IMG/VR virus record: IMGVR_UViG_3300021963_000114
Span: 1-64,000 of that record
Source: a virus
Direction: 5' to 3' (one strand)
Length of the DNA: 64,000 nt
In this document: positions 18,002 to 56,637 of the stretch, piece after piece
Position numbering within the stretch: position 1 is the first letter of the stretch
How the letters are laid out: each line of letters starts with the position of its first letter
Program-made: the position numbers and the translations under genes
Notes under the pieces: generated by a model
Seen by the model: the letters and a program-made list of their open reading frames with translations, nothing else
What the model was told of the DNA's origin: nothing
The model's database searches: none

Positions 18002-18616
18002 ATGGAAACAACCCAAAACACCCCCGAAATTCAAGTCAATAAACTGGTAACAGAATCTTTCGCAAAAGAATTATTCTCAACACAATTTCGGAGTTTTGAC
18101 ATAAATCCCACAATGATGGATGATTTGACCTTTAGCGATCAAGATTTTATTGACTTGGTCAATTCATGCTCAACAAATGTAACTACAGATTTAATGTTCA
18201 CAGAAGATAACAAATATGTAGAAAAACTCAAAGAGATTGTCTATACTATTTGCCAAGATCTTCCAGAATTTAACAATGAGATGCAATATACACCTGTTAT
18301 TATTGGATCCAATGCTCTATTCCAACAAAAATTAGAACACATTCCACTACATTGTTACGAACACGTTCCTTTGGTATTTACGTTTGTTCTGCACACTGGC
18401 GAATATACACCACCAACATATTTCGCCGATCCTCGTGGTGGCGTAACTACAACACGTCAATTGGCTGCACAGAATTTGGTTGCAACTTCATTTCAAATCA
18501 AAGGTAGATTTGGAGAAGTTTATGTAACTCCTGGACATTTGATGCGTTATACAGAAACTAATCTAGACACTCAATCTTATGTCACTTTAAATATTAAGGT
18601 TGGTTTCGGACGTTAA
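18002..18616 (+). CDS. Unknown protein, possibly a diverged 2OG-Fe(II) oxygenase fold
   Basis: This 204-aa protein is the only plus-strand gene between 0 and 45 kb and overlaps the 3' end of the PP-loop gene tail-to-tail by 23 bases. Its C-terminal half reads TFVLHTGEYTPPTYFADPRGG, then RFGEVYVTPGHLMRYTETN, then YVTLNIKVGFGR. This order resembles the putative 2OG-Fe(II) oxygenase family (SGVYYV..L.F.DPR ... PG.L.H.V..N..R.SISFN). The usual H-x-D/H iron ligands are not clearly present, so the enzyme assignment is a guess and it could be a non-catalytic relative. It has its own late-type promoter. Confidence 0.5.
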   Translation: METTQNTPEIQVNKLVTESFAKELFSTQFRSFDINPTMMDDLTFSDQDFIDLVNSCSTNVTTDLMFTEDNKYVEKLKEIVYTICQDLPEFNNEMQYTPVIIGSNALFQQKLEHIPLHCYEHVPLVFTFVLHTGEYTPPTYFADPRGGVTTTRQLAAQNLVATSFQIKGRFGEVYVTPGHLMRYTETNLDTQSYVTLNIKVGFGR

Positions 18617-19673
18617 TTCTAGTTTGGTTTACAAAAGATGTGGGTGGTAACTTAATCACACTATAATCTTCCAATAGAAGTAGCCATGTCGGATCGGGGT
18701 TTCCTAAATTGGAAACCCCTTTTGGTTTTTGCCAAGCATAATGGCTATCGCCACTCCACTCCTCGATTAACTCCCTCATAACCCAACGATGAGTCAATGG
18801 GTTTCCAACTTCTTTAGTGAATGGTTCTTTAGTTGTAATCACATAACGCTGAAAGTCGTCTGTATTAAAGAAGTGAAATTGATTGTCTTGCTGACTTGTA
18901 CTAACTCTTGTTGCAAACTCAGCAGTATACCAATCCAAGTTAAAAATAAACCACCAACGTAAATCTCTTAAGGTTTCAATTTTCTTTGGACTAGCATTAA
19001 TGCATGGTAACATAAACTCATGCAATTCTGGATCGATGTACTTCGTATAGTCGTCCAATGGATCTGGTCCATTGAATTGATGATGAAAAAAGGATATGTT
19101 TGTTTTTACTGCAGGATTAACTGAGAAATTATCAGTTGGTCCAAATAGCTGATTACCAAAGAACCCAGTAACAAATATCTCATTTTCTGAACAATCATCA
19201 AAATCTCTATTCGAAGAAACTTTAATTTTTAAATCTACACCTTTAGGGATAATTCTTTTCTCTAAAAAATCCCCAGACTCTAGTATGGAAGTATATGTTC
19301 CATAAACAGCAATTTGTTTTGGATCGTTGGCAAAATGCAGTAACGCACAGAGAACTAAAGTGCTATCAATACCTCCACTCCAAACGACATTTATACGTTT
19401 ACCCAATGATAAAAGTTGTTTACATCGTTCTTCTACACATTGAGCAAATGACTTGTTAAAACCCTCTACACTCGGTATTTGCAATAGTCCAGGTTTAATG
19501 TTTAGGTAATGTGGAATAGATCCTGTTCTATCATAAACATTATTAAGATTCATTTTATGTTTGTCATAAAAATAAAATAAATCTCTGTCTAAAAGATAAC
19601 CATCTAAAATCTCAGGTTGCTGGTCAACAACTTGTTTAACGAATCCAACATTGTAAAATAAAATTTGCTTCAT
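18594..19673 (-). CDS. AsnB-like PP-loop ATPase without glutaminase domain
   Basis: A 359-aa protein with an ATP-pyrophosphatase P-loop VVWSGGIDSTLVL (SGGIDS at 99-104) and, about 75 residues later, FVTGFFGNQLFG, which fits the G-G-DELFGGY-like second motif of asparagine synthase synthetase domains. The N-terminal Cys-type glutaminase domain of AsnB is absent; instead there are about 95 residues of unknown type. Such stand-alone domains adenylate a carboxylate; relatives include lasso-peptide cyclases and beta-lactam synthetases. Here it lies in the cassette with a radical SAM enzyme and a Cys-rich protein. The substrate is unknown. A terminator-like hairpin separates it from the upstream DctP-like gene. 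Confidence 0.75.
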   Translation of the reverse strand: MKQILFYNVGFVKQVVDQQPEILDGYLLDRDLFYFYDKHKMNLNNVYDRTGSIPHYLNIKPGLLQIPSVEGFNKSFAQCVEERCKQLLSLGKRINVVWSGGIDSTLVLCALLHFANDPKQIAVYGTYTSILESGDFLEKRIIPKGVDLKIKVSSNRDFDDCSENEIFVTGFFGNQLFGPTDNFSVNPAVKTNISFFHHQFNGPDPLDDYTKYIDPELHEFMLPCINASPKKIETLRDLRWWFIFNLDWYTAEFATRVSTSQQDNQFHFFNTDDFQRYVITTKEPFTKEVGNPLTHRWVMRELIEEWSGDSHYAWQKPKGVSNLGNPDPTWLLLLEDYSVIKLPPTSFVNQTRINVRNQP

Positions 19674-19687
19674 ATAATCCCCAAATG

Positions 19688-19714
19688 AAAAAGGGGATGC
19701 CTAAACATCCCCTT
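19688..19714 (-). terminator. Intrinsic terminator/attenuator after the DctP-like gene
   Basis: AAGGGGATG, a six-base loop and CATCCCCTT form a 9-bp stem; on the minus strand it is followed by five T. It lies in the 62-base gap between the DctP-like and PP-loop genes. No promoter is seen after it, so the PP-loop gene would depend on read-through. Confidence 0.75.
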
Positions 19715-19722
19715 ACATAATG

Positions 19723-19729
19723 TATTTAG
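19723..19729 (-). promoter_or_regulatory. Possible late-type box before the PP-loop gene
   Basis: The minus strand reads CTAAATA, a weak version of TATAAATA, just downstream of the DctP-like stop codon and upstream of the hairpin. Transcripts from here would cross the terminator. Weak evidence. Confidence 0.25.
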
Positions 19730-19735
19730 ACAGTA

Positions 19736-20683
19736 TTACTGTAGCTTGATTTTTTCTACTAGACCTGGAGTAAAGTAGTCAGCGTACATGTCATATACTT
19801 TAGCAGTAACTTGTTTAAATTTCTGTTCTTCTTTCTCAGACATCTTAACAACCTTAACACCTTTTGCTTCGCACTCTGCAAGGATGTTTGGAATGTCAGC
19901 AACAGACTCACGACGCTCTTTACGTGCTGCATTAAATGCTGCAGTAGAGATAATCTCTTTAGTTTCTGCGTCGAACTGAGCCATCCAGTCTTTATTAACG
20001 ATAATAGAAGTTAAGAACAAGCTATGAGCAGTGTCGTTAACATACTTAAATGCTTCGTTTTGCTGTAATGGGAAAATACGAACGTAAGTTGATTCACCTG
20101 CGTTAATAACACCCTCTTTAGCAGCTGAATTCATTTGCTCAAGTTCGATACCTGGATAAGTGTTTGCACCAAGTAACTTGAAAGTATCGATTGCAACTGG
20201 AGAACGGCTAGTACGAACTTTCTTAAACTTCCATGCGTCTACGCTGTCAGCTTTAAAGTTTGCTGGAACAACACGATAACCACCAGAGTAAGTGAAAGAC
20301 ATAGCGTGAATGTTAGAATTCTTGCTTACATCAGCCAATAGTTGAGTTCCAATTTCACCTTCTAAAACTGCGTCAGCGTGATCGTGGTCACGGAACAAGA
20401 ATGGTAGATCTAATGCGTTTAGATCTTTGTTGTAGTCTGCCAACCAAGTAGTGTAAATGTGGCTCATTTCGATAGTGCCATCATTAATCATCTGCATTAA
20501 ATCGTTCTTGCTAATTTTCTTGCCAGCGTTATATTTCTCAGCATAAGCAGTTAGAGAAAGAACTTCGATATCAAATTGACCATTAGTTTTCTCATTAACT
20601 TCTTTAGCGAACGACTCAGCTACCTTAAGAAATAGCCCGATTGGCTCGTGGGCGATAACCCATTTTACGTGCTTTTTACTCAT
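19736..20683 (-). CDS. DctP/TRAP-type solute-binding protein lacking a signal peptide
   Basis: A 315-aa protein of the TRAP transporter periplasmic binding family: FAKEVNEKTNGQFDIEVLS, MINDGTIEMSHIYT, LDLPFLFRDHDHADAVL, SGGYRVVPANF, KKVRTSRSPVAID (R157, the position of the carboxylate-binding Arg), AAKEGVINAGE. Family members normally bind organic acids in the periplasm. This one begins MSKKHVKWVIAHEP with the mature fold starting at about residue 5, so there is no secretion signal, and no DctQ/DctM membrane genes are nearby. It must act in the cytoplasm, in the virion, or by another export route. A perfect TATAAATA box lies about 80 bases upstream and a strong hairpin follows, suggesting separate, strong late expression. 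Confidence 0.88.
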   Translation of the reverse strand: MSKKHVKWVIAHEPIGLFLKVAESFAKEVNEKTNGQFDIEVLSLTAYAEKYNAGKKISKNDLMQMINDGTIEMSHIYTTWLADYNKDLNALDLPFLFRDHDHADAVLEGEIGTQLLADVSKNSNIHAMSFTYSGGYRVVPANFKADSVDAWKFKKVRTSRSPVAIDTFKLLGANTYPGIELEQMNSAAKEGVINAGESTYVRIFPLQQNEAFKYVNDTAHSLFLTSIIVNKDWMAQFDAETKEIISTAAFNAARKERRESVADIPNILAECEAKGVKVVKMSEKEEQKFKQVTAKVYDMYADYFTPGLVEKIKLQ

Positions 20684-20696
20684 TTTTTGGTTCTCC

Positions 20697-21011
20697 TTAC
20701 CTTTTAAGGTATTGTAAAAATTTTGCTTTGAATAGGTCTACCGACCAAGTCTCTATACCATTATTTATAGAATTCAGTATTACTGGAATCTTGTTATCAA
20801 TAATCTGCTCTTTGTATTTATAAACAAATTGCAGTTGTTCTGGTGTTGCAATTAGTTCAAATTCAGGAATTTGAATATTTACATTATTATTCTGGTATTC
20901 CTTGGTGTCTGAACAGTAATGGAAGATATTGGCTATTGTGTAGCCATTTCTATATCTTCCATATCTTGGGAATTTATTCAGTTCCCAAATCATACAATCA
21001 AGAAACGCCAT
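20697..21011 (-). CDS. 104-aa protein between radical SAM and DctP-like genes, unknown
   Basis: The protein (MAFLDCMIWELNKFPRYGRY) has no recognisable domain, two Cys and no membrane segment. Its ATG overlaps the stop codon of the radical SAM gene by one base, so the two are translationally coupled. By position it could be a partner, such as a peptide-recognition protein, but its sequence does not show the winged-helix pattern of RiPP recognition elements clearly. Function unknown. Confidence 0.6.
   Translation of the reverse strand: MAFLDCMIWELNKFPRYGRYRNGYTIANIFHYCSDTKEYQNNNVNIQIPEFELIATPEQLQFVYKYKEQIIDNKIPVILNSINNGIETWSVDLFKAKFLQYLKR
20762..20769 (-). promoter_or_regulatory. Candidate late promoter of the DctP-like gene
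   Basis: A perfect TATAAATA on the minus strand, inside the 104-aa gene and about 79 bases before the DctP-like ATG at 20683. Confidence 0.5.
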
Positions 21012-22483
21012 TATACTACTGGCATTGCTGGAACAGTAACCACAGGAATGTTCAGAGGTTTACGAACTTTCCATGATTTTTGAGTTCCGCTAGATTTGAC
21101 GAAATTAATATCAATAACGTCAAGTGTTTTAACATCATTAAATCTAATCTTATCGCCTTCAATTCTCGTCAAAACTAATCCATCAGTCATAATGAATAGA
21201 GCACCTGCAAGAATAGCAAGATTATAATAGAATAAATTCTCACACGCTTGAGTCCAGTACTGATCTTCTAAGAATAAACAAGCACCCTGACACAGTTGAA
21301 CTACTGGACAACTAGGACACTCTGCTCTGGTCGACCAGTGATAAGAATTGGTCAAACGAATATTATCAAAATCTTCAATATTACCAAGATTATGTTTAGT
21401 TAATGAAGAGGTGTTTTGGCAAGTAGTAACATTACCTTTCATATCGATGGCAATATTATCTTCTTTGTCCATACCGCACTTTTGACCAACTACTTCTGCT
21501 GGTCTCTGATAAACTAACGATTCAAAAAATCCAGTAATCTTTGTATTGACTGTCCAACTAAACTGGTTTTGTCCTTGAATAGTTTCCCAGAATAAATTAT
21601 GTAGAATTTCTTTCTTCTCGTCTGGAGTTTGCAAAGAATGCGCCATTCCAGAATCATCATACGGTAACATTAATTCTTCAGTTGTAACTTGCAGTTCCAT
21701 CTGAGAAATTTCAGTATATTCATATCCAAAATCTTTTCTGTTTAACTTGTCGCAAATAAAATCTCGAACAGCTGGTATTGATACATTCTCACGTGTCAAT
21801 ACACAGTTAAATGTAAATCTTCCCTGTCCCATAGTTTTTAATGCATATACTACAGCATCTTTTGCTCTTGGTTCATCAAGTGGATCTGGTCCACGATTTT
21901 GAGCATGTAATGGTCCATCATGCGACATACCGATTGAAAATCCCATTCGATTAAACCAATCAATCTTTTCTCTATCCAATAAAGAACCATTGGTTACCAT
22001 CATAAACTGTGCATTGGGATAAACTTTTCTAACCTTTTCAGCTAAAGGTTTTAGGGTCTTCCAATATACCATTGGTTCGCCACCCCAAAATTCAAGACGG
22101 AATCTATCATAAGTTCCGAACTGAAAATTTTCTTTCATTTTTCGAACTAGATCTTCTGCGTCATCTGGTCCGCCTACTGGATCATGAGGTTGATGTGCTT
22201 GATTGCAATAAGAGCAAGCATAATTACACTTAAGACCCATAGTAATCTTAAGTGTTGTTGGTTTTCTGGATTTTCTTCCGTGGAGTTCTGGATCGTGAGG
22301 GTTTGTTACTTTGGCAGGAGTCCAAACTTTTGCATTAATTTGATACTCCAAACCATTAGAAATGTGGCTCAGCGATGGTTTTTCTTTTGTTTCTTCCCAA
22401 AACATCTCAGATGTCATTGGGTCATAAACTAAAACCTGCTCAACATCATTGGCTCCTTTAAGAACCAGCTTATATAAACTCAT
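21011..22483 (-). CDS. Radical SAM/SPASM protein, probable peptide-modifying enzyme
   Basis: A 490-aa protein with a complete radical SAM core: CNYACSYC (C86, C90, C93) binding the SAM 4Fe-4S cluster, FWGGEP at 132-137, VTNGSLL at 163-169 and SHDGP at 187-191. The C-terminal SPASM domain is canonical: C336-x13-G-x4-C355, then C389-x2-C392-x5-C398-x3-C402, and C414, giving two auxiliary clusters. SPASM enzymes such as anaerobic sulfatase-maturating enzymes and sactipeptide synthases modify peptides or proteins, often at Cys. About 75 N-terminal residues precede the core and could bind a leader. The nearest Cys-rich candidate substrate is the 122-aa protein two genes upstream. A CATAAATA late-type box lies 33 bases upstream. 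Confidence 0.93.
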   Translation of the reverse strand: MSLYKLVLKGANDVEQVLVYDPMTSEMFWEETKEKPSLSHISNGLEYQINAKVWTPAKVTNPHDPELHGRKSRKPTTLKITMGLKCNYACSYCNQAHQPHDPVGGPDDAEDLVRKMKENFQFGTYDRFRLEFWGGEPMVYWKTLKPLAEKVRKVYPNAQFMMVTNGSLLDREKIDWFNRMGFSIGMSHDGPLHAQNRGPDPLDEPRAKDAVVYALKTMGQGRFTFNCVLTRENVSIPAVRDFICDKLNRKDFGYEYTEISQMELQVTTEELMLPYDDSGMAHSLQTPDEKKEILHNLFWETIQGQNQFSWTVNTKITGFFESLVYQRPAEVVGQKCGMDKEDNIAIDMKGNVTTCQNTSSLTKHNLGNIEDFDNIRLTNSYHWSTRAECPSCPVVQLCQGACLFLEDQYWTQACENLFYYNLAILAGALFIMTDGLVLTRIEGDKIRFNDVKTLDVIDINFVKSSGTQKSWKVRKPLNIPVVTVPAMPVV

Positions 22484-22515
22484 TGTAAATCCTTATAATC
22501 TATTAATAACAAATG

Positions 22516-22523
22516 TATTTATG
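22516..22523 (-). promoter_or_regulatory. Candidate late promoter of the radical SAM gene
   Basis: The minus strand reads CATAAATA, 33 bases before the ATG at 22483, in the 44-base gap after the 369-aa gene. Confidence 0.5.
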
Positions 22524-22527
22524 GTAA

Positions 22528-23637
22528 TTAAATTAGTTCAATCCAAAGTTCTGAGTAAGAATAAAACTCTCCAGCATTTAGTTTCAATTTAATGTAATCA
22601 CCAGCAACCAAACCATTAGTAGAAATTCTTAAAGAATCAACTCCACACAATGTTTTATTTGATCCAGCAAAATCATGCTGTTGACCATAGCTTACAATAT
22701 TTTGATTAGCTAATTGTCCTGGAACTGGGTTTTGTTTATCAAATCCACCAGAAACTAAGCGAGATTTATTTGGGATACCATTGATACATACTACATCAAA
22801 AGATATAGGTAAAGTTTTATCTGCATAAAATGTTCCAAATGCAGCTCTTACAGTATAATAATCTGCTACTGGTAAACTAACTTTAAAACGATTACCACCA
22901 TTATTTGGTTGTAATGGGTTAGCTGGGTCGTATGCTCCTGGAGCTACTGCCATTGGATATGTTGTAGCAGCTTTGGCTTCTTCTTTTGTATATGGTAAAT
23001 TGGTAGAAATAATCTTTCCATCATTATCCAAAAGTTCATAGTGAACAGCTGTATGTAAATTATAATAAGTCCAAGATGTTGCGCCAGCTTGATCTGTTGT
23101 TTCAGCTGAAGTTAAATCTCCAGTAAGAATAGTATCGTTAATTTGTAAACCCTGTTCATCAACATAAACAGTCATAACTGATGCATCAAAATCTGCTGCT
23201 GACTTATAAAAATTATCGATGGTAAATAATGGGATTAAATTATTATTGTAACGACGTTTAATAATTTTAGGAATTTCTCTATGAGTGAAACTTCCAGTAA
23301 CATTATTTTTTGTATATTCTAAAGCATTAAATGGACCAACAATTTCATTTTTAGTAACGTCGTAATCTACTACCCAACGAACAGCATCTTTTGTTTTAGG
23401 GAAATCTGCTGTAGTAAAAGTTCTCTCTAATAAAGTCTCAAAATTAGCTTCTGTATGATTAATTCTAAGATCAATAGATTCAGTTGTTGGGACTTCTGGT
23501 AATACAATTTTCTCAACCAATACAGTAATTTCTTTATTCGCTGCGTTATAACCCATAGTAGTTCTAACAGAAGTATTGATACCAATATCTTCAGAACCAT
23601 CGATCCCAGTTACAGGAATTTTAAATAATTTATACAT
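22528..23637 (-). CDS. 369-aa protein of the Cys-rich cassette, unknown (likely virion)
   Basis: The protein starts MYKLFKIPVTGIDGSEDIGIN and is mostly predicted beta, with no transmembrane segment and few Cys (three, scattered: VVCING, TLCGVD). No known domain was recognised. C-terminal sequence YIKLKLNAGEFYSYSELWIELI looks like a packed beta domain. It sits directly downstream (11 bases) of the Cys-rich protein and upstream of the radical SAM gene. A structural partner or carrier of the Cys-rich protein is a reasonable guess from position only. Confidence 0.6.
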   Translation of the reverse strand: MYKLFKIPVTGIDGSEDIGINTSVRTTMGYNAANKEITVLVEKIVLPEVPTTESIDLRINHTEANFETLLERTFTTADFPKTKDAVRWVVDYDVTKNEIVGPFNALEYTKNNVTGSFTHREIPKIIKRRYNNNLIPLFTIDNFYKSAADFDASVMTVYVDEQGLQINDTILTGDLTSAETTDQAGATSWTYYNLHTAVHYELLDNDGKIISTNLPYTKEEAKAATTYPMAVAPGAYDPANPLQPNNGGNRFKVSLPVADYYTVRAAFGTFYADKTLPISFDVVCINGIPNKSRLVSGGFDKQNPVPGQLANQNIVSYGQQHDFAGSNKTLCGVDSLRISTNGLVAGDYIKLKLNAGEFYSYSELWIELI

Positions 23638-23648
23638 GTTTTTAATCC

Positions 23649-24017
23649 TTAGCAGTTACAGTTACAAGCACAGTTACAGTTACATGCGCAGTTACAGTTA
23701 CAGTTTACACGCAAATATTTGAAATGACCCATTGACTGTTCTTGTGAGTCGTGACGAAGACCATCGTTGTATGAAGTGTTACGGAAGACGTTTAGTCTCC
23801 AGTCAGTAACGTGTACGTTAAACGCTAAATCGGCAGCGTCGCAGTTACCGCAGTTACAGTTACATGCTGAGTTACATGCGTTACATGCACATGCCCAACC
23901 GCAGTTACCGTTACTATCGTTTACACCACGATTTCCTGTATCGCCCTGCCATGTCCAAAACAAACCATTAAGGTCTGTTCCATTTGAAATTTTAAATCCT
24001 GTTGCACTTACTGGCAT
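23649..24017 (-). CDS. Cys-rich (Asn/Ala)-Cys repeat protein, candidate modified peptide
   Basis: A 122-aa protein with 17 Cys in two clusters. Cluster 1 (residues 38-59) has eight Cys in the pattern C-GWA-C-A-C-NA-C-NSA-C-N-C-N-C-GN-C. Cluster 2 is the last 18 residues (105-122), a strict alternation of Asn/Ala with nine Cys, ending in Cys. About 45 Cys-free residues separate the clusters. The first 20 residues (TGFKISNGTDLNGLF) resemble the start of short phage tail or fibre proteins. It lies between an S74 fibre gene and a radical SAM/SPASM gene. It could be a RiPP-like precursor with thioether links, a disulfide-bonded virion tip or a metal-binding protein. The sequence alone does not decide. 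Confidence 0.8.
   Translation of the reverse strand: MPVSATGFKISNGTDLNGLFWTWQGDTGNRGVNDSNGNCGWACACNACNSACNCNCGNCDAADLAFNVHVTDWRLNVFRNTSYNDGLRHDSQEQSMGHFKYLRVNCNCNCACNCNCACNCNC
23652..23706 (-). repeat. Tandem TGTAAC codon-pair repeat encoding the Cys tail
   Basis: On the minus strand Cys-Asn codon pairs (TGTAAC) recur almost perfectly with TGTGCA-type Cys-Ala interruptions. The near-identical hexamers could expand or contract by slippage, changing the number of Cys. Confidence 0.7.
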
Positions 24018-24018
24018 A

Positions 24019-25191
24019 TTATTTCTCCAAGTTCTCTAGACGAGTAGTTAATTCTTTAATTGTTTTTTGTTGTTCTTTGATAGCCTCAACCAATAGACCA
24101 ACCATATTACCGTAGGCGATGGTTTTATAACCAGACATATCCTCACCAACAACTTGAGGGATAACCTGTTCAACTTCTTGAGCAATTAACCCCAGTTCCG
24201 CTTTACCACCCTTAATATAGGCTACTCCACGCAAACTATTAACAATATCTACAGCATTATTTAGGGTTTTAATATCTTCTTTTAGTCTTTGGTCTGAAGT
24301 TGTATTAACTTCAGTTGCATAAATGGCTTGGAAAGTATTACTTCCTGCAAATACGTTATTTGCTGATAATTTTGCGATACCTGCACCAACTGAGATTGTT
24401 GGGTTTCCAGCTACACCATCGCCATCTGCAACAACTATTTCTCCAGCTACACCAGCAATACTTCTAGCAGCAGCTGATCCGTTTGCAGTTCTAGCATATA
24501 ATCCGTTAGTTGTAATACCAGCGATAGCAGATAAGTCGGGATCGAATGGCTGAACGTCAGTACCAATAACTACACCAAGATTAGTTCTTGCAGCAAAGAC
24601 GTCTGTCGAGCCAACTAAAGTTCTTCCAAATGCAGTAAAAGGTGTAAGTGCTGCTGCAGCTGCACCAGTATAATATGGTAATCTATCTGCAATTGGGGTA
24701 GCTGTAGACAATGCTTGTAAATTGGAACTATACGCTTGAACGTCTGACCCGATCGCAACACCTAAGTTAGTTCTTGCATTCTGAGCAGTTGTAGCACCAG
24801 TACCACCAGCAGAAACTGGAATTGATCCACCAGCGATAGTGATAGAACCTACAGATACTGGACCACTAAATGTAGCTCCAGCTCCAGTAAGAGCACCTGC
24901 AACTGTTAGCGCATTTACGCCAATATTACCAGATGTATCACGAGAAACGATAGAACTTTTATCCAGAGTTGTTGGAAGGGTTGAACTTGTGTTCATTCCA
25001 TCCAGAGCATCTGCATCCAAGCCAGATCCTGCTCCATCCACAGTCTTGATTTTTGTTAAAATATCAGCTGGGGTATAAGTAGCAGAAGGTAGTTTAGTTG
25101 CCAACTCATCATTTAAGTTGGTAAAGTTTCCATCAACTTCTGAGTTGGTAAGGGGTTGTCCCTTTGTTTGTCTTAAAACGAGTGTCGCCAT
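24019..25191 (-). CDS. Tail fibre-like protein with S74 chaperone (390 aa)
   Basis: The protein starts MATLVLRQTKGQPLTNSEVDGNFTNL, the common N-terminus of small fibre proteins that carry a coiled-coil attachment. It has a repeat GGTGATTAQNARTNLGVAIG twice in similar form (standard fibre shaft motif). The C-terminal S74 self-cleaving chaperone is complete: SDQRLKEDI, AELGLIAQEVEQVIPQV, GYKTIAYGNMVGLLVEAIKEQ and a final coiled coil. Cleavage is expected before the Ser of SDQRLK. The gene ends one base before the Cys-rich gene begins, so the two are probably co-translated. Confidence 0.85.
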   Translation of the reverse strand: MATLVLRQTKGQPLTNSEVDGNFTNLNDELATKLPSATYTPADILTKIKTVDGAGSGLDADALDGMNTSSTLPTTLDKSSIVSRDTSGNIGVNALTVAGALTGAGATFSGPVSVGSITIAGGSIPVSAGGTGATTAQNARTNLGVAIGSDVQAYSSNLQALSTATPIADRLPYYTGAAAAALTPFTAFGRTLVGSTDVFAARTNLGVVIGTDVQPFDPDLSAIAGITTNGLYARTANGSAAARSIAGVAGEIVVADGDGVAGNPTISVGAGIAKLSANNVFAGSNTFQAIYATEVNTTSDQRLKEDIKTLNNAVDIVNSLRGVAYIKGGKAELGLIAQEVEQVIPQVVGEDMSGYKTIAYGNMVGLLVEAIKEQQKTIKELTTRLENLEK

Positions 25192-56124: not shown

Positions 56125-56490
56125 CGCCACTTTAGTTAGTACAAGAGCCAATTGGGCATCGGTTGCTAACATCGAGCAAAGACTTCACTAATTCGTGGTA
56201 GGTTATTCTGTTACGAGGAAACCTACCGAAACCCTAAGCAGTGTTTAGGCTGCTAATGCGAACTGTGCGTCGTTTGCGTTTACGTTGTTTACTTTTTACG
56301 ACTCTCTGTGTCGTGCTGTCCACTCTGTTACTCATTGCCCTGTCGAAACCATGGCACCCCCAACTGAACATACTCAGCGTTTCGCTTTGCTACCGATAAC
56401 TCGGTTCGGAATATGTTCAGGTGGAGGTGGTGGGAGTCGAACCCACGTCCAGAACACCTTTCTCATTGCTTCATACAGCAATTCTTACAT
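56125..56490 (-). ncRNA. ssrA: Circularly permuted two-piece tmRNA
   Basis: Minus strand order: acceptor piece first, then coding piece. The acceptor piece (3' end at about 56420) contains GGACGTGGGTTCGACTCCCA and ends CACCTCCACC. The coding piece starts at 56361 with GGGGGTGCCATGGTTTCGAC. GGGGGTG pairs with CACCTCC as the 7-bp acceptor stem (one GU). The tag frame at 56277-56245 reads ANDAQFALAA-stop. The linker 56362-56419 has an 8-bp inverted repeat TGAACATA/TATGTTCA that closes the permuted loop. A stem GGTAGGTT...AACCTACC follows the tag, as a pseudoknot candidate. The outer ends are approximate. CCA is not fully encoded. Confidence 0.9.
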
Positions 56491-56637
56491 TACGCCATCT
56501 TTTGTTGACTTGATTAGCGTAACTTGTCCGTTCGCACCAATAACAACTTTAAACATATCTCCCTCTTTCCATCCTTCAGGAAGTTCTTTCTGTTCAAATA
56601 TAATTATATTTGGTGCAATCTCAGCATTTAATACCAT
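56485..56637 (-). CDS. 50-aa small protein with WKEGD motif, AbrB-like
   Basis: A short frame from ATG 56637 to TAA at 56485: MVLNAEIAPNIIIFEQKELP, EGWKEGDMFKVVIGANGQVT, LIKSTKDGVM. The core G-W-K-E-G-D-x-h-x-h matches the 61-aa protein at 61.5 kb (AGWKEGDVLEW) and is like a SpoVT-AbrB swapped-hairpin half. The 3' end abuts the tmRNA acceptor piece. No SD is strong. A real gene is likely from the similarity, but function is unknown. Confidence 0.6.
   Translation of the reverse strand: MVLNAEIAPNIIIFEQKELPEGWKEGDMFKVVIGANGQVTLIKSTKDGVM

Follow-up and report, generated by a model that had tools for sequence, protein, structure and literature searches.

Why does a phage keep a radical SAM enzyme beside a small cysteine-rich protein among its tail fibre genes? 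The question is raised by a stretch of viral DNA of 64,000 nucleotides (IMG/VR record IMGVR_UViG_3300021963_000114, positions 1 to 64,000), referred to here as the window. In a preliminary description of the window, a 122-aa protein with 17 Cys, a radical SAM/SPASM enzyme (rSAM) and a PP-loop protein were placed in one tail-fibre cassette, and their coordinates and strand were found to be correct. Across diverse phages and prophages, rSAM was observed downstream, on the same strand, of a protein whose C-terminus alternates Asn, Ala or Asp with Cys. The cassette is likely a tail-tip maturation module, in which rSAM would modify this tract on the virion tip. The argument turns on three genes:

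23649-24017, minus strand: Cys-rich protein of 122 aa with 17 Cys, the proposed rSAM substrate (conserved tract Cys; ratio of nonsynonymous to synonymous substitution, dN/dS).
22528-23637, minus strand: fast-evolving accessory protein of 369 aa, homologous by hhalign to the accessory gene upstream of rSAM in many other phages.
21011-22483, minus strand: rSAM enzyme of 490 aa, the proposed tract maturase (PF04055, 2.9e-10; phrog_1802, 9.1e-64, over residues 53-420).

Two Cys segments were found in the 122-aa protein, i.e., an internal one at residues ~39-59 and the C-terminal tract NCNCNCACNCNCACNCNC at residues 105-122. The 17 Cys were counted on copies 100% identical to the window protein. 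All nine Cys of the C-terminal tract were invariant in a 19-row alignment of 55-96% identity. Against 7 homologues the protein showed dN/dS of 0.05-0.15, with proportions of synonymous differences (pS) of 0.44-0.72, and with synonymous sites so strongly diverged these ratios are rough. Within the tract, codons were exchanged synonymously between AAC and AAT and between TGT and TGC. The Cys protein is a real coding sequence, and purifying selection acts on both it and rSAM. A DNA-repeat artefact as the origin of the tract was ruled out by the synonymous variation and dN/dS.

The preliminary description had assigned C86/C90/C93 and seven SPASM Cys to rSAM. This is borne out by an alignment of 16 rows, down to 24% identity, in which C86/C90/C93, C355, C389, C392, C398 and C402 were invariant and C336 and C414, which complete the seven, nearly so. 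The SPASM model TIGR04085 matched the window enzyme with 36.6 bits, over its cut-off of 27. The nearest curated models were peptide maturases, PapB (NF047865) first at 5.2e-18. Of solved structures, the best profile matches were 8vpo, the anSME 4k36 and 5wgg (5.2e-18), the last of which we take to be CteB. The available part of an RRE study (PMC12710340) has 8vpo among its reference structures. In annotations the enzyme was labelled sulfatase maturase or plain radical SAM protein, and one record names that of Achromobacter phage JWF, an annotated locus, anaerobic sulfatase-maturating enzyme. The main rSAM was seen to have a second rSAM-like gene, usually a shorter one, directly upstream in a number of loci, L180, L183, L184, L190, L192, L196, L198, L209, L216, L220, L233 and L023 among others.

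The pairing of rSAM with the tract was searched from both sides. Viral contigs were scanned with the window rSAM, giving 21 loci, and with the rSAM alignment, giving 78 loci kept of at least 571 relatives; from bacterial genome contigs, 80 loci were kept of 148 relatives. Collection-wide counts from the viral scans (rSAM and tract pattern) and the bacterial rSAM scan are lower bounds. The forward set was composed of loci found by rSAM similarity alone, one per 85% identity group, i.e., 93 representatives. A tract was accepted when a same-strand open reading frame (ORF) held a run of at least 3 xCys, with at least 3 of the x being N, A or D, that lay no more than 40 residues from the C-terminus or ahead of a Hint-type start, and when the ORF ended within 6.5 kb upstream of rSAM. 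Loci with less than 4 kb upstream of rSAM (10 of 93 in the forward set; 18 of 121 in a mixed set found partly via the tract), rSAM ORFs under 330 aa and second rSAM genes were left out, the best-scoring rSAM per locus being used.

By this criterion, a tract ORF was found upstream of rSAM in 71 of the 83 dereplicated loci with at least 4 kb upstream, i.e., in 38/38 viral or phage records and 33/45 bacterial contigs. The mixed set showed the tract on the same strand in 89 of 103 loci and on the opposite strand in none of the 103. The figure of 89 is an all-ORF count; a greedy gene caller gave 77/103, losing ORFs known to hold the tract. No tract ORF was found in 30 control contigs, a weak control hand-picked from 36 contigs without an ORF-read pattern, leaving out L056, L087, L090, L119, L139 and L150 (rSAM present, less than 4 kb, or pattern in an ORF under 40 aa). 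This control was given no weight because the chosen contigs could hardly hold such an ORF; the controls relied on instead were the count on the opposite strand and the 36 loci in which no ORF of at least 40 aa reads the pattern.

For the reverse direction, viral contigs were searched with a DNA pattern for NCNCNCxC, blind to rSAM, which gave at least 120 stretches. Among the matches listed, the pattern lay within 25 residues of the C-terminus in 68 ORFs of at least 40 aa, at 66 loci, and 54 of these ORFs (52 loci) were followed by an rSAM-profile match on the same strand, 16-2878 bp downstream. The remaining 14 had at most 2430 bp of downstream DNA each. Grouped at 85% identity, the 68 ORFs formed 42 groups. 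One or more members had rSAM in 37 of these, and the five groups without it (L067, L085, L101, L113, L154) were among the ORFs with little downstream DNA. Where the pattern was not read in an ORF of at least 40 aa, rSAM was so placed in 0 of 36 loci, one of which holds rSAM elsewhere. The downstream rSAM scored below 200 bits in 10 of the 54 positives, some being cut by the contig end, and those of L063, L071, L078, L148 and L158 seem to be divergent rSAMs.

Tallied apart were 15 patterns internal to an ORF, and 3 of Hint type, 2 of these with rSAM. In one internal-pattern locus (L077), rSAM lies directly upstream. Several of the 15 belong to an unrelated small KCKNCNCNCHC protein. The sequence CKNCNCNCHC was seen near the start of a recurring small viral protein (L056, L064, L075, L090, L138, L150, L157, L165), which is probably metal-binding and unrelated to the tail tract.

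In bacterial genomes, the pattern was found in 14/299 of one family and 1/295 of another, seed genomes included; a few genomes were matched by the reversed control as well. rSAM was present in the seed loci L321, L322, L324 and L325, and L323 is the L279 prophage. Among the matches listed, L357 is a new bacterial locus with tract, Hint-like start and rSAM, and L356, with rSAM, is probably the same place as L284, the two contigs being equal in length. The other bacterial matches listed were hexanucleotide repeats out of frame, inside ORFs, or in no ORF.

The preliminary description had named regular occurrence of the Cys protein without rSAM, or the reverse, as grounds for giving up its idea. 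With both directions run, the pairing held. The rSAM-tract pairing is strongly supported, and it extends far beyond the window.

The proteins that bear the tract are diverse. BLASTP sorted the 90 tract genes of the representatives into 21 clusters, of which one is a cellular peptide; different clusters may yet be remotely homologous. An alignment was made of 38 tract proteins, chosen by hand from the 90 with at least one per cluster and 16 of the largest, and only the tract Cys were invariant or nearly so. The tract is short and modular. Its alternating residue is Asn in 66%, Ala in 17% and Asp in 10%. The tract ended 0-7 residues from the stop in 77 of the 90 and 15-35 residues in 3, and an extension of 156-214 residues followed it in 10; these figures come from genes passed by a filter that allowed no more than 40 residues behind the tract unless a Hint-like start followed, and longer internal tracts are therefore uncounted. 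The largest cluster held 52 of the 90, with a median length of 364 aa, and some short tract proteins were 67-96 aa. Neither this median nor the 122 aa of the window protein resembles a short free precursor, with leader, of a ribosomally synthesised and post-translationally modified peptide (RiPP). Two adjoining short tract proteins of 92 and 95 aa, each with its own terminal NCNCNC tract, were seen in L143 (6540-7114, minus strand).

Several tract proteins resemble tail fibres. The tail-fibre family phrog_21412 was matched by 7 of the 38, and further tail-fibre families by at most 4 members each. One of the 38 carries a T7 tail-fibre N-terminal domain (5.4e-20), three carry collagen repeats and four the carbohydrate-binding module CBM_5_12. 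When four tract proteins were compared with PHROG, those of L247 and JWF matched tail-fibre families. The annotated loci inspected sit in tail-gene regions, and the gene order in JWF is central tail fibre J, gp027, tract-Hint protein, gp029 and rSAM. Display on the virion is the likelier because, in relatives, the tract often forms the end of a longer protein, and no fewer than 7 of 38 such proteins match a tail-fibre family. Of the extensions behind the tract, that of JWF matched Hint-domain models over the curated cut-off and those of L206, L280 and L257 under it, and the L181 extension had no Hint-model match at 0.05. Hint-type domains directly after the Cys tract were placed as follows:

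L001, 5760-7211: Hint-type domain, the only one to pass the Pfam cut-off.
L206, 7404-8345: Hint-type domain.
L280, 7709-9187: Hint-type domain.
L257, 7434-8636: Hint-type domain.

The enzyme class and its chemistry are known from cells. QhpD, a SPASM rSAM, cross-links a protein subunit, the QHNDH gamma subunit, and not a secreted peptide. CteB, which we take to be the SCIFF maturase, is among the closest solved structures by profile. However, QhpD and CteB are cellular enzymes with other substrates and spacing, and the window enzyme is far under their NCBIfam cut-offs. Features that mark ranthipeptide and sactipeptide systems were found here, i.e., CX3CX2C, the SPASM Cys and a Cys-rich candidate substrate near the enzyme. 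The PapB/ranthipeptide system (PapA/freyrasin) is alike in its SPASM rSAM and its Cys-rich substrate with many repeated sites, and it is the nearest curated family, whereas the window enzyme is phage-borne, scores under the cut-off and has as its candidate substrate an Asn-rich, CxC-spaced C-terminus of a phage protein. PapB forms Cys-to-Asp/Glu thioethers, with a loss of 2 Da each, on CXnD with n = 0-6, according to the available part of PMC9413430. Since PapB accepts such short spacings, dense CxCxC cross-linking is chemically plausible, though Asn is not Asp.

One divergent case bears on how the pairing arose. The L078 rSAM is much closer to PapB (2.6e-35; 122.2 bits, below the cut-off of 340), scores weakly against the phage rSAM profile (50 bits) and adjoins a NCNCNCNC tract. 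A tract beside an enzyme of this kind may mean that tracts and SPASM maturases came together on more than one occasion.

The proposed maturation would proceed in three steps. Initially, rSAM would recognize the Cys tract on the newly made protein. The radical SAM cluster would then take hydrogen from tract residues and, with the SPASM clusters, Cys sulphurs would be joined to Asn, Asp or Ala carbons as ranthionine- or sactionine-type thioethers, each link costing 2 Da, and the product would be a compact cap resistant to protease and redox. Finally, the cap would sit at the distal fibre end or tail tip and serve host attachment or tip stability. In Hint-bearing phages, the mature protein would end in the tract once self-cleavage had exposed it. 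The PP-loop, DctP-like and 2-oxoglutarate (2OG) oxygenase proteins are lineage-specific extras, by which the tract or tip may be decorated further. The parts of this scheme differ in strength. Judged from the gene pairs, it is highly probable that rSAM acts on the tract; that the product is on the virion tip is probable from the fibre-like tract proteins; and for thioether chemistry the chances are even. The idea of a post-translationally modified, possibly virion-displayed Cys-rich peptide, put forward in the preliminary description, is strengthened by the comparative data.

Several points weigh against this scheme. The modification itself is something that we infer from sequence comparison. 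All curated maturase cut-offs were missed by the window enzyme, PapB reaching 65.3 bits against 340, and the chemistry is not readable from the family because none was reached. The tract is dominated by Asn and not by the Asp/Glu of PapB. The Cys protein of the window lineage stands by itself at 122 aa and has no Pfam, PHROG or NCBIfam match; we infer its incorporation in the virion, and its AlphaFold model was uninformative (mean pLDDT 42.3). The tract proteins of L261 and L291, two of the four compared with PHROG, had no match there. A short tract-like ORF arising from a perfect hexanucleotide repeat was found without rSAM (L326/L355), and the survey of 594 genomes in two bacterial families gave one new tract-rSAM locus, L357, among the matches listed.

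The 12 of 45 bacterial loci without tract are a further point of this kind. Five belong to a Bacteriovorax-type clade, three (L302, L305, L320) to a second clade, and four (L253, L278, L298, L308) are without explanation. In the rSAM tree, the tract-lacking rows fell in several groups (5 changes, by a quick method). Three loci of the Bacteriovorax-type clade encode peptides of 50-62 aa ending SAGACY, GAGACY or SAGACACACGGPCY, with a conserved GSLKPLTA leader-like part:

L289, 11777-11965, plus strand: short peptide of 62 aa ending SAGACACACGGPCY, ~430 bp from a cellular rSAM relative.
L288, 14941-15102, minus strand: short peptide, several kb from rSAM and on the other strand.
L299, 16441-16593, minus strand: short peptide, several kb from rSAM and on the other strand.

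In Variovorax (L317, 6274-11185), an rSAM relative lies behind an ATP-grasp-like gene (under cut-off), a YcaO/nitroreductase fusion and a 69-aa candidate precursor. Its gene content makes this locus a candidate cellular RiPP cluster, and it has relatives without a tract in L302, L305 and L320.

The main rivals to a thioether linkage are metal coordination and epimerisation. The first would make the tip a metal-thiolate site, in which the CxC tracts of a trimeric fibre bind Fe, Zn or Cu and rSAM makes a minor change or loads the tip. CxC alternation would set all Cys on one face of a strand, and in one family (L078, L158) an HTH stretch stands just ahead of the tract. The HxH site of T4 gp37 lies in an internal needle and not at the extreme C-terminus, and we know of no modifying enzyme for the gp37 tip. 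HxH iron sites in the fibres of T4 (gp37) and alterophages are described in the available part of PMC11705849, so that alternating metal ligands in a fibre tip have a precedent, although the gp37 ligands are His and not Cys. A metal site alone would not need a dedicated rSAM, yet enzyme and tract are coupled in both directions, and we hold this explanation to be unlikely.

If rSAM were an epimerase, it would invert alternate residues of NCNCNC and give a D,L-alternating beta-helix at the tip. Polytheonamide-type peptides form such a helix, and the strict alternation of the tract suits it. YydG (8ai3, 1.8e-8), presumably an epimerase, is among the matched solved rSAM structures, but its match is far weaker than those of the SPASM maturases and covers the rSAM core only. 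Moreover, Cys are the most conserved letters of the tract, which an epimerase alone leaves unexplained. The probability of this reading is put lower still than that of the metal tip.

The modified peptide might also stay out of the virion, as a free RiPP of the infected cell with an antibacterial or superinfection-excluding role. The stand-alone 122-aa protein of the window lineage would fit this, as would cellular relatives in RiPP-like loci with YcaO (L317) or near short Cys peptides. However, the 38 tract proteins include at least 7 with a tail-fibre family match and one with a T7 tail-fibre domain, and no exporter or protease family was matched among the window cassette proteins, the Peptidase_S74 chaperone of the fibre aside. 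A free RiPP is about as improbable as an epimerised tip.

The tail-region setting of the annotated loci would also be expected if tail genes and rSAM were linked by descent as late genes, with no enzyme-substrate relation. This is very improbable, as the 21 tract-protein clusters share little beyond the tract and still neighbour rSAM, and the 36 loci with the pattern unread in an ORF have no such rSAM. Almost no credence is given to a host-metabolism auxiliary gene unrelated to the tail, e.g., heme synthase AhbD or a sulfatase maturase: the JWF annotation and the 261 ahbD genes of a Baltic virus study would suit it, but the search from either side couples rSAM to the tract gene, and the available part of that study (PMC9301287) itself terms the ahbD inference speculative. 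We conjecture that the Baltic ahbD calls may in part be enzymes of the present kind.

Around the maturation pair proposed here, the gene content varies. An accessory gene often stands between tract and rSAM: cluster 1 is present in 66 of the 121 representatives and cluster 24, the window type, in 8. The two clusters are homologous (hhalign probability 96, E 3.8e-9). The 369-aa gene of the window showed dN/dS of 0.21-0.65, the fastest of five cassette genes compared, as would be expected of a host-facing protein, and it may encode an adhesin or chaperone. One member of the accessory family had Invasin_D3/Big_1 matches under cut-off. The sole structural match of the accessory profile, 6f0t, is a designed protein and was taken as chance. 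JWF gp029 was not claimed for the family, being in a different sequence cluster. The preliminary description had passed over this fast-evolving gene and the DctP-like gene within the cassette. The other features of the cassette region are:

24019-25191, minus strand: tail fibre that ends in a Peptidase_S74 chaperone and is encoded immediately upstream of the Cys protein (PF13884, 4.9e-13; phrog_5668 tail fiber, 1.3e-29).
20697-21011, minus strand: 104-aa protein with no family match, its gene touching the rSAM gene; lineage-specific (cluster 18 in 10/121 loci).
19736-20683, minus strand: DctP/TRAP solute-binding-like protein of 315 aa (PF03480, 1.2e-43); lineage-specific.
18594-19673, minus strand: PP-loop synthetase of 359 aa, AsnB/beta-lactam-synthetase type by predicted fold; lineage-specific accessory enzyme.
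18002-18616, plus strand: predicted 2OG-Fe(II)-oxygenase-like protein of 204 aa, convergent to the cassette (phrog_81, 6.9e-6; no Pfam match).

The PP-loop cluster was found in 13 of the 121 representative loci and the DctP cluster in 11. L037 retains the Cys protein, accessory and rSAM but none of the PP-loop, DctP and 104-aa proteins in recognizable form, which places these three outside the core. Genes like 2OG-Fe(II) oxygenases (cluster 3) lie nearby in 42/121, the one member tested matching PF13759.

The AlphaFold model of the PP-loop protein (mean pLDDT 77.7) aligned with beta-lactam synthetase 1mc1 (VIA Z 14.2, root-mean-square deviation 3.3, 193 aligned, 14% identity), and SGGxDS was invariant in 13 rows. 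By this model the protein has the AsnB/beta-lactam-synthetase type of synthetase fold, as the preliminary description had proposed. A glutaminase-like domain takes ~200 residues. The synthetase match starts at residue 62-65 in the best rows (22-25 in two others), so that an N-terminal domain of this kind is ruled out by length, too little sequence standing before the match. Lasso B-protein protease and precursor families had no match among the cassette proteins, the only place looked. The lasso-cyclase analogy of the preliminary description is peripheral, and a lasso-type or AsnB-centred reading was rejected, given the small share of loci with the PP-loop cluster and its absence from recognition beside rSAM in L037.

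No signal peptide was visible by eye in the DctP-like protein, and DctQ/DctM partners had no match among the cassette proteins scanned, the whole genome being outside that scan. It could be a virion or cytosolic ligand binder. The 'late-type promoters' of the preliminary description did not hold up for the one type checked: the window has 4 copies of TATAAATA where 6.84 would be expected, and 89 of 100 shuffles had at least as many.

The window phage looks, from its genes, T4-like at low identity, an 854-aa protein matching cyanophage and pelagiphage baseplate proteins at ~30-32% among the matches listed. It carries a betaproteobacterial-type transfer-messenger RNA (tmRNA) at 56173-56531 on the minus strand (RF01850, 128.8 bits, full model length), for which ARAGORN gave the tag ANDAQFALAA at 56154-56511. 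A betaproteobacterial host is likely because of this tmRNA type.

A literature search by title and abstract start, with preprints and most subscription journals outside its coverage, found no phage rSAM/tail or virion RiPP system; the preliminary description likewise knew of none of this form. Host-recognition clusters of pelagimyophages hold rSAM cassettes near tail fibre genes in aquatic myophages (PMC7029224). Unlike the present case, no substrate, Cys tract or function is proposed for them in the available part of that paper, and membership in the same family is unproven. The enzyme class and expected chemistry are already known, whereas their use as a virion modification appears new.

On balance we lean towards a widespread virus-encoded modification. 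Diverse tailed Pseudomonadota phages and prophages, together with contigs that binning assigns to other phyla, would have recruited SPASM rSAMs, probably repeatedly, for cross-linking the C-terminal (Asn/Ala/Asp)-Cys tracts of tail tips. This would be RiPP-type virion chemistry, at times with Hint self-cleavage, 2OG oxygenases or an AsnB-like synthetase, and would set how the tip meets the host. If so, numerous natural pairs of enzyme and substrate, whose minimal tract has ~8 residues (e.g., NCNCNCRC), would be useful for peptide cross-linking chemistry. If the reading is true, cultured phages and prophages allow a direct test of covalent modification at the fibre tip and of its need in adsorption. 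Phages would then finish the host-touching part of the virion by radical chemistry, a new layer of tail-fibre biology that is easily missed by annotation.

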